53,764 nt of DNA from contig CALUQO010000017.1 of the NCBI GenBank assembly GCA_944322935.1, positions 1 through 53,764 on the forward strand. Reading direction: 5' to 3'. The notes beneath the pieces are model-generated. The model ran no database searches. It was given only the letters and a program-made list of their open reading frames with translations, and was not told the origin of the DNA. Shown one piece after another: positions 24,868 to 30,090 of the stretch; position 1 is the first letter of the stretch; each line of letters opens with the position of its first letter. The stretch comes from Candidatus Gastranaerophilales bacterium (GTDB lineage Bacteria; Cyanobacteriota; Vampirovibrionia; Gastranaerophilales; Gastranaerophilaceae). The position numbers were made by a program, and so were the translations under genes.

Positions 24868-25773
24868 CTAACCGTTGAGCAGGCTGATTGCGATTTGAGG
24901 CAATGCATTTGCCTGAACAAGGAGTGAAGAGGTCGTTTGTTGCAGTATTTGATATTTTGTATAATTAGCTGTTTCTTCCGCAATATCCGCATCCATAATT
25001 GTGGATTGAGCTTCCGTTAAGTTTTCAATTGTCGTTGTTAACGAATCTGTTGCAGCATCTAATCTGTTTTGAGTTGCACCGATTTTTGCTTTTTTATCAT
25101 TAATATTTGTTACAGCTGCATCAAGCATTGTTATGTATTGAGCAGCAGCACTGGCATTGGCAAAAGCAGCATCGAGGTTTCCGCTAAGACCATCAGCCGG
25201 AGTAAGAGCAGGCATTGTTCCGGTAGCATCCGCACCGAGAGTAGTTGAGTCAACCGTCTGGAAGAAATCAGCATCAAGTTTAATACAGTTTGCTGCTTCA
25301 TCAGAGTTTGCACCTACCTGCAGTCTTAAACCAATATCCGCAAGCTGGCTGTTACCGTCCAACAGTGTCAAGCCGTTAAAGTTTGAATTTTTTGAAATAC
25401 GGTCAATTTCCGCCAACCTTTGAGAGACTTCATCTTTCATTGCGTTCATTGAATTTTCATCGTAAATACTGTTTGCTGCCTGAACAGCCAAATCCCTTAT
25501 ACGTTGAATATTATCAAGCATAACGTCAAGGTCGCCTTCAATTACCGCCAGCACATTTGTGCCTGTTGTAATATTATTTTTTGCAACTTTCGAGCCTCTT
25601 ATTTGAGTATCTAAATTTGTAGCAATGTACAGGTTTGCGGCATCATCACCAGCTCTGTTAATTTTATAACCCGTTGACAACCTTTCCATTGCCGTAGACA
25701 TTGCACTTGTTGCTTTGTTCAAATTACTAACCGCCTTTAGGGCAGTTACGTTCGTGTTTACTACAATAGCCAT
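24868..25773 (-). CDS. fliC: Flagellin
   Basis: A 301-residue flagellin, the filament subunit. The frame is open further upstream, but an AAAGGAAAA site precedes the ATG at 25773 that begins MAIVVNTNVTALKAV, the standard flagellin start. The N-terminal D0/D1 domain has LSTGYKINRAGDDAA (about residues 32-46). The C-terminal D1/D0 domain has AQSTIMDADIAEETANYTK and ends with ALPQIAISLLNG. The central variable domain is short, about 60 residues. It has its own leader, a possible sigma-28 promoter and a strong terminator, and lies about 9 kb from the basal-body operon. Confidence 0.97.
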   Translation of the reverse strand: MAIVVNTNVTALKAVSNLNKATSAMSTAMERLSTGYKINRAGDDAANLYIATNLDTQIRGSKVAKNNITTGTNVLAVIEGDLDVMLDNIQRIRDLAVQAANSIYDENSMNAMKDEVSQRLAEIDRISKNSNFNGLTLLDGNSQLADIGLRLQVGANSDEAANCIKLDADFFQTVDSTTLGADATGTMPALTPADGLSGNLDAAFANASAAAQYITMLDAAVTNINDKKAKIGATQNRLDAATDSLTTTIENLTEAQSTIMDADIAEETANYTKYQILQQTTSSLLVQANALPQIAISLLNG

Positions 25774-25825
25774 AATACAGTTTTCCTTTCTTAATTCATT
25801 TCTCTCTTTGCCGTCACACATACGT

Positions 25826-25854
25826 GTATCGGACAAATACAGTTACAGTATTTC
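25826..25854 (-). promoter_or_regulatory. Possible sigma-28 promoter of flagellin
   Basis: On the minus strand TCCGATAC (complement of 25826-25833) resembles the sigma-28 -10 (GCCGATAA). Seventeen bases upstream is GAAA (complement of 25851-25854), a weak match to TAAA. The start point would be near 25818, giving a leader of about 45 bases. Confidence 0.4.
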
Positions 25855-28433: not shown

Positions 28434-28707
28434 TGTAGAAAACCTGTTCAAAACTACAAATTTGATGTTCAAACTTTTGCAAAAAGTTTTTAGTTTTCTA
28501 CAAACAAAAATTAAACAAAAAAATTTTTGAAAGTTTTAAAAAATTATTGAAAAATTTTCTACAAAAAATTAACAAAGTTTTGAACAGGTGTGTTGGTTTA
28601 TATTGTTTGGTTTATAATAGTTTTATACAGAATTTTATTTCTTTATTACTTATTATTATTTTATTATATTTATTTATATAATTAATTTATAAATAAAAAA
28701 ATAAAAA
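28434..28707. other. Probable chromosomal replication origin (oriC)
   Basis: Three copies of the 9-mer TTTTCTACA, one base from the cyanobacterial DnaA box TTTTCCACA, lie at 28434-28442 (inverted), 28494-28502 and 28555-28563. They are interleaved with TGTTCAAAAC-type elements, two of which form a perfect 14-bp inverted repeat (28442-28455 and 28576-28589). Next comes an A+T-only stretch of 58 bp (28650-28707), a natural duplex-unwinding element. dnaN follows at 28788. In Synechococcus the origin is also beside dnaN, and dnaA is elsewhere. The gap between the 99-aa gene and dnaN (28343-28787) contains no ORF. Confidence 0.75.
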
Positions 28708-28787
28708 CTTTCAGAAAAAAATTTTTATTGAAAATTTAAAATAAAAAACAAAACAAAATTTATTGCAAAAAATCGTCAGGAGAAAAT

Positions 28788-29918
28788 ATGTCAAACATGG
28801 AATTTACTATAGAAAAAGAATCCTTGCTTACAAATTTAAAAATTGTGGAAAAAACAACAGTTGCCAGAGGTATACAACCGGTACTTTCTAATATTTTAAT
28901 TGTTGCATCTTCTGACAATTATATTACCTTTGCAGCAACTGATTTGGATATTAATATAACAACAAAAACTATAGCATCTGTTCAAACTCCCGGAAAAATT
29001 ACATTGCCTGCAAAAAAACTTTCGGAAATTGTTTCACGTTTAAGCAACAAACCAGTTGTTTTTTCTTTGAATGCAGAAACAAATGTTGTTAATATAATTT
29101 GCGGAAATTCTAAATTTGAACTTATCGGTATCAGTGCTGACGAATTTCCTCAAACAATTACCGAAGAAGAGTTAAAAGATAAAGAATGCGTTGAAATTGA
29201 CATAAATCCTTTTATAAAATCGATTAAATATACTGCATTTTCTGCTGCAAATTACGAAAACAGAAACATAATAAGCGGTGTATTTTGTGCAATTTCAAAA
29301 GAAAATATTGAAATGGCTGCAACAGACGGAAACCGTTTGACAAGAATTGTAGAAAAAATTACAAACGAAAAAGAAACAGATATCAGCTGCGTTATTCCTT
29401 CAAAAACCTTGCAGGAATTTTTGAGAATAGCTTCTTTTGTAAATGATGAAAAATTGTGTTTGATAATAGAAAAAACAAGAATTATTTTCAAAACTTCTTC
29501 AATGATTATGACTTCACGGATTCTTGAAGGTGAATATCCGCCTTATAAACAGCTTATTCCTCAAAGCTGCGAAAAAAATGCAATAGTTAAACGTGAAGAA
29601 ATGATATCAGCTCTTGAAAGAGTTGCTGTTATGGTTAATGAAAGAACAAATATTGTTAAATTTATCTTTGGAGAAAACACTCTGTTTTTAAAAGCTGATA
29701 CTCCTGATGCTGGATTGGGCGAGGATTCAATTTCTGCAGATTATACTGACGAAGAATTGACAATTGCTTTTAACTACAGATATGTTCTTGATTCTTTAAA
29801 AATAATGGAATCTGAAAAGGTTAAAATTGGTTTGGGCGGAAGTTTGTCTGCAACATTATTTAGACCGGATAGCGAGGATGATTATCTCTGCTTGATTATG
29901 CCTATTCAGATAAGATAG
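28788..29918 (+). CDS. dnaN: DNA polymerase III beta subunit (sliding clamp)
   Basis: A 376-residue sliding clamp that holds the replicative polymerase on DNA. The three-domain clamp fold is evident from its length and motifs: MEFTIEKESLLTNLKIVEKT at the start, ATDLDINI near residue 45, ATDGNRL near 179, and the C-terminal LIMPIQIR that closes the ring. AGGAGA precedes the ATG. The position directly after the probable origin is typical. It is convergent with the arginine decarboxylase gene. Confidence 0.97.
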   Translation: MSNMEFTIEKESLLTNLKIVEKTTVARGIQPVLSNILIVASSDNYITFAATDLDINITTKTIASVQTPGKITLPAKKLSEIVSRLSNKPVVFSLNAETNVVNIICGNSKFELIGISADEFPQTITEEELKDKECVEIDINPFIKSIKYTAFSAANYENRNIISGVFCAISKENIEMAATDGNRLTRIVEKITNEKETDISCVIPSKTLQEFLRIASFVNDEKLCLIIEKTRIIFKTSSMIMTSRILEGEYPPYKQLIPQSCEKNAIVKREEMISALERVAVMVNERTNIVKFIFGENTLFLKADTPDAGLGEDSISADYTDEELTIAFNYRYVLDSLKIMESEKVKIGLGGSLSATLFRPDSEDDYLCLIMPIQIR

Positions 29919-30043: not shown

Positions 30044-30090
30044 AAAAAATAAAATAAAAAATAAAAAATAAAAAATAAAAAATAAAAAAT
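30044..30090. repeat. Seven-base tandem repeat (AAAAAAT)
   Basis: Five exact copies of AAAAAAT occupy 30056-30090, with one more copy at 30044-30050 and a shortened AAAAT between. It lies between the convergent dnaN and decarboxylase genes. Such repeats can change length by slippage. Confidence 0.9.

Follow-up and report, generated by a model that had tools for sequence, protein, structure and literature searches.

The closest described counterparts of this locus are the cyanobacterial origins, which lie beside dnaN in Cyanothece ATCC 51142, Anabaena PCC 7120, and Synechococcus PCC 7942 (PMC4674748). In Bacillus subtilis and Clostridioides difficile, DnaA boxes followed by a DnaA-trio form the basal unwinding system (PMC6669920, PMC7561715). 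The oriC of Thermotoga maritima has a 12-mer box, AAACCTACCACC, and the Mycobacterium tuberculosis box is TTGTCCACA (PMC4285127). In that review of studied origins, C6 is the same in every 9-mer given and no position-6 variant appears (PMC4285127). Asp433 of DnaA is described as shared by every bacterial class (PMC8235120), and the published contacts given there assign this residue to box position 7, not 6. An oriC beside dnaN is already known from cyanobacteria; a box changed at position 6 is not among the reviewed 9-mers. The open-access full-text literature yielded no paper linking the Gastranaerophilales group with DnaA boxes or with the box sequence seen here.

The Gastranaerophilales are non-photosynthetic kin of the cyanobacteria, and the host is an uncultured gut bacterium. 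The window, that is, the whole stretch of 53,764 nucleotides analysed here, is contig C17 of a draft MAG (2.3 Mb, 76 contigs). We hold with good confidence that positions 28434–28707, taken as a whole, are best explained as the chromosomal oriC, with a change of DnaA specificity tied to residue 433 (E. coli numbering). The box cluster, the conservation of the boxes, the skew minimum of relatives, and the covariation of residue and base are established at the level of sequence.

Like the cyanobacterial oriC (PMC4674748), the locus is intergenic and next to dnaN, has several 9-mers of the type TTTT...ACA and an A/T-rich stretch, and has dnaA elsewhere, on contig C3. The cyanobacterial box TTTTCCACA goes with an Asp433 DnaA, whereas the window genome combines TTTTCTACA/TTTTGAACA (also TTTTATACA) with Lys, and TTTTCCACA is absent from the window intergenic region. 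As in B. subtilis and C. difficile, the last box is followed by same-strand [CT]TA repeats and an A/T-rich stretch, here as sequence features alone, but the box sequence differs and the origin is not at dnaA. The nearest precedent is T. maritima, whose DnaA also lacks Asp at 433 (NRSHPV) and whose box is the other case known to deviate strongly from the 9-mer; that box is a 12-mer of different sequence in an unrelated lineage.

The putative origin contains six TTTTNNACA boxes, arranged as two arms that point in opposite directions, the left on one strand and the right on the other, together with a degenerate GTTTGAACA (Table 1). The initial annotation had described three TTTTCTACA 9-mers (one inverted), three TGTTCAAA elements, a 14-bp perfect inverted repeat, and a 58-bp run without G or C followed by dnaN. 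All of these were found, the TGTTCAAA elements at 28445 (+), 28466 (+), and 28579 (−), and the dnaN product (DNA polymerase III beta subunit) scored 295 bits against a TIGR00663 cut-off of 138. The box TTTTATACA and the DnaA-trio-like TTA repeats behind it had been overlooked. This run, TTATTA-C-TTATTATTA, overlaps the start of the A/T-only stretch.

Table 1. Features of the putative origin and its neighbour gene in the window.
Feature	Position	Strand	Evidence or remark
DnaA box L1, TTTTCTACA, left arm	28434–28442	−	Aligned genomes: TTTTCTACA 15/26, TTTTGAACA 8/26
DnaA box L2, TTTTGAACA, left arm	28445–28453	−	Read earlier as TGTTCAAAA; TTTTGAACA 20/26, TTTTCTACA 4/26
Degenerate DnaA box L3, GTTTGAACA	28466–28474	−	Aligned genomes: TTTTGAACA 7/26, ATTTGAACA 6/26
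DnaA box R1, TTTTCTACA, right arm	28494–28502	+	Sequence scan, shuffles, 26-genome alignment
DnaA box R2, TTTTCTACA	28555–28563	+	Sequence scan, shuffles, 26-genome alignment
DnaA box R3, TTTTGAACA	28578–28586	+	Aligned genomes: TTTTGAACA 23/26, TTATGAACA 3/26
DnaA box R4, TTTTATACA, closest to unwinding region	28621–28629	+	43 bp past R3; recurring 42–44 bp step
14-bp perfect inverted repeat, left half, centred on L2	28442–28455		Partner 28576–28589
14-bp perfect inverted repeat, right half, centred on R3	28576–28589		Partner 28442–28455
DnaA-trio-like run TTA TTA C TTA TTA TTA	28643–28658	+	13 nt past R4; [CT]TA runs at same place in most family genera
58-bp G/C-free stretch, probable unwinding element	28650–28707		Sequence
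dnaN	28788–29918	+	TIGR00663 profile match

The cluster was not a chance product of base composition at the level of dinucleotide shuffling. None of 5000 shuffles of the 445-bp intergenic region reached three TTTTCTACA (mean 0.015), and none reached five TTTTCTACA/TTTTGAACA (mean 0.07). The 2.3-Mb genome has 70 copies of TTTTCTACA, and no second site with three of them within 200 bp was found in it. Every TTWTNNACA box of the region had T or A at position 6, and the C6 of the canonical TTWTNCACA did not occur. The cluster is preceded by a 99-aa ORF (no Pfam match), a gene with an isochorismatase domain, and a gene of 409 aa (no Pfam match).

A GC-skew minimum at the locus had been expected from the start, and relatives largely bore this out. 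Two genomes of the same genus had their cumulative minimum 0.7 kb and 2.6 kb from the boxes (G169, 320 kb read: minimum 278,248, boxes at about 278,976; G042, 270 kb: minimum 56,862, boxes at about 59,445). G153, from another genus, showed a distance of 5.3 kb. The box cluster of G154 and G095 is 37–47 kb away from dnaN, and their skew minima were 1.6 kb and 0.3 kb from the boxes, compared with 48 kb and 37 kb from dnaN, respectively. G058 and G073, which also have their boxes apart from dnaN, gave an ambiguous skew. The window genome itself, for which the skew covers only the 54-kb window, had a minimum near 28 kb that was local but not the lowest.

The arrangement of the locus recurs as well. 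Across many genera of the family, as well as in genomes of families f2, f3, and f9, a step of 43 bp (42–44) separated the last two right-arm boxes. In most genera [CT]TA repeats, for example TTATTATTACTATTA or TTACTACTACTATTA, began about 12 nt past the last box. The mean trio run was 3.15, compared with 2.68 in reversed sequence; because this excess is modest and the setting A/T-rich, the trio call leans on place and sequence over numbers. The skew minimum in relatives, the conserved box arrangement, the trio, and the A/T-rich stretch all support the reading as oriC.

Read from the opposite strand, TGTTCAAAA becomes TTTTGAACA, which gives both elements of the initial annotation the form TTTTNNACA. 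An alignment of the origin region in 26 genomes of three close genera showed TTTTCTACA and TTTTGAACA in ratios of 15:8, 4:20, 13:5, and 11:4 at shared sites; the two words swap at homologous sites in both directions. The same protein therefore most likely binds both. The box arrangement was conserved in these relatives, with 93% conservation in the boxes and 70% in the sequence between them. Many other genera of the family have 4–10 TTTTCTACA in the same region.

The DnaA of the window genome was identified by TIGR00362 (507 bits, cut-off 344) and has the PF00308 (AAA+) and PF08299 (DnaA C-terminal) domains. It has Lys at position 433 (FDKKHTT), not Asp. Asp433 was found in Cyanobacteriia and in all other genomes read outside the class (GGKDHTT and similar), and it was lost in all sampled class members, usually to Lys. 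The motif is DKKHTT in the window genus, RRHTT in f9, and RTHSS in f6; most of f2 has NRKHTS and most of f3 GRKHTT. Asn433 occurs in genera g3, g26, g35, and g36 and in g21, where one genome has Thr. In a tree built from DnaA sequences lacking domain IV, one supported clade comprised the Asn genomes and one Thr genome.

TTWTNNACA boxes lying no more than 450 bp from dnaN were sorted by residue 433 and scored for the base at position 6. This base was C in 43 of 45 boxes of Asp433 genomes. Lys433 genomes had T 242, A 108, C 10, and G 11 times (T or A in 350/371), and Asn433 genomes had C 22, A 22, and T 1 times. Upstream of dnaN, Cyanobacteriia had 55 TTTTCCACA and 1 TTTTCTACA, in agreement with PMC4674748, and several of them had no boxes in that region. 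The DnaA tree needed three changes for Asp/Asn versus the rest and four for the box state. It offers only two independent residue/box pairs, which agree in most random pairings, so that no tree-based test of the covariation can become significant. Across the genomes compared, the altered box is a class-wide trait, not specific to the window genome, and the initiator apparently changed along with its box. The shift of DnaA specificity that had been suggested is probable in view of this joint variation.

Immediately upstream of dnaN, the cluster could also be a DnaA-controlled dnaN promoter region or a DnaA-titrating site, with the true origin elsewhere, for example at dnaA. We regard this as very improbable. 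Several genera have the cluster 0.9 kb to tens of kb off dnaN, and the skew minima of G154 and G095 are found near the cluster. Trios and an A/T stretch are features of an origin. An origin at dnaA was ruled out: dnaA is on another contig in the window genome, and it does not mark the origin, because in G169, where it shares a contig with the boxes, it lies 211 kb from the skew minimum. A quite unlikely reading accepts the locus as oriC and takes TGTTCAAA(A)C as a target of some further protein, for instance a modulator of initiation, interleaved with the DnaA boxes; the initial annotation had likewise allowed for another factor. The two words are visibly unlike, and two copies of one build the 14-bp inverted repeat. 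However, the supposed second word is TTTTGAACA on the opposite strand, falls within the TTTTNNACA frame, and interchanges with TTTTCTACA at aligned sites, and families f3 and f9 contain both forms too. TTTTGAACA is most likely an alternative form of the DnaA box, with no need for a second factor.

It is likewise unlikely that the locus is oriC with an unchanged DnaA specificity, its boxes having drifted to A+T in an A+T-rich lineage. The intergenic region has 18% G+C, and a change from C6 to T6 increases A+T. Nevertheless, f2 and f3 show T6 or A6 despite 42–48% G+C upstream of dnaN, and TTTTGAACA retains a G. The Asn clade, also A+T-rich, shows C6 or A6 with hardly any T6, and residue 433 has changed as well. 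An oriC with altered DnaA specificity is the reading that we prefer. With moderate confidence, we extend it to the class: the class-wide loss of Asp433 would have rewritten the box at C6, with recoding within the class as Asn433 with TTTTGCACA/TTTTGAACA and, in one genus, as Thr435-to-Gln plus Arg433 with TTTTCTGCA. If so, the class would comprise several pairs of initiator and origin that have ceased to recognize one another.

In the proposed mechanism, DnaA would bind the two opposed arms of TTTTNNACA boxes, of which TTTTCTACA, TTTTGAACA, and probably TTTTATACA would be variants of a single box. A DnaA filament would be loaded on the TTA trios from the final box of the right arm, and the A/T-only stretch beside them may then melt and allow helicase loading. 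The departure from the cyanobacterial TTTTCCACA would result from the loss of the near-universal Asp433 in the DnaA of the class. Residue 433 stands immediately before His434, the start of the recognition helix, and we infer that it causes the base preference at position 6: Asp would go with C6, Asn with C6 or A6, and the Lys433 of the window genome with T6 or G5A6. On chemical grounds, an acidic or amide side chain may serve as H-bond acceptor for the C (or A) amino group, and Lys may donate such a bond to T or G, which fits the counts.

The predicted domain IV of the window genome superposed on the E. coli (1j1v) and M. tuberculosis (3pvp) structures with a Z score of 18.7 each and rmsd values of 1.1 and 0.9, respectively. 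Its recognition helix begins at His77, immediately past Lys76. Other causes within the protein were considered and rejected. The one-residue loop deletion that this family has before HTT does not account for the box change: M. tuberculosis DnaA has the same short loop together with Asp and the box TTGTCCACA (PMC4285127), and in f2 Lys occurs although the deletion is absent. A change of HTT to HPT was rejected because G034, G092, and genus g39 combine HPT with TTTTCTACA.

A class in which both an essential initiator and its sites have changed is a natural experiment on their joint change. In this group, origin finders that rely on TTATCCACA or TTTTCCACA could overlook origins or put them in the wrong place.

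The position of the cluster varies across the class. Genera g2, g7, g24, and g29 and genome G064 could be taken as lacking boxes, but this was rejected for those read: at loci L443–L453 the cluster exists, and inserted genes or rearrangement have put about 0.9 to 80 kb between it and dnaN, with a response-regulator-like gene in the gap in g29. A search for a TTTTCTACA cluster in genus g4 found none. Upstream of dnaN, no clear cluster was seen in f6 (L292, L293), where the RTHSS of DnaA replaces the DHTT motif, in f5 (L294, L295), where RGNS[SA] does so, or in some other families.

Genus g25 (G025, G085, G145; L123, L439, L440) has 3–4 copies of TTTTCTGCA, changed at position 7, and in G025 the last of them is followed by a trio. 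The DnaA of this genus reads KRHQT in the two genomes read, with Thr435 changed to Gln and Arg at 433. Elsewhere in the window, an intact flagellin gene (Flagellin_N and Flagellin_C) lies at 24868–25836 (−), about 2.6 kb before the origin. An AAATAA-type low-complexity array occupies 30045–30090, between dnaN and a convergent Orn/Lys/Arg decarboxylase gene.
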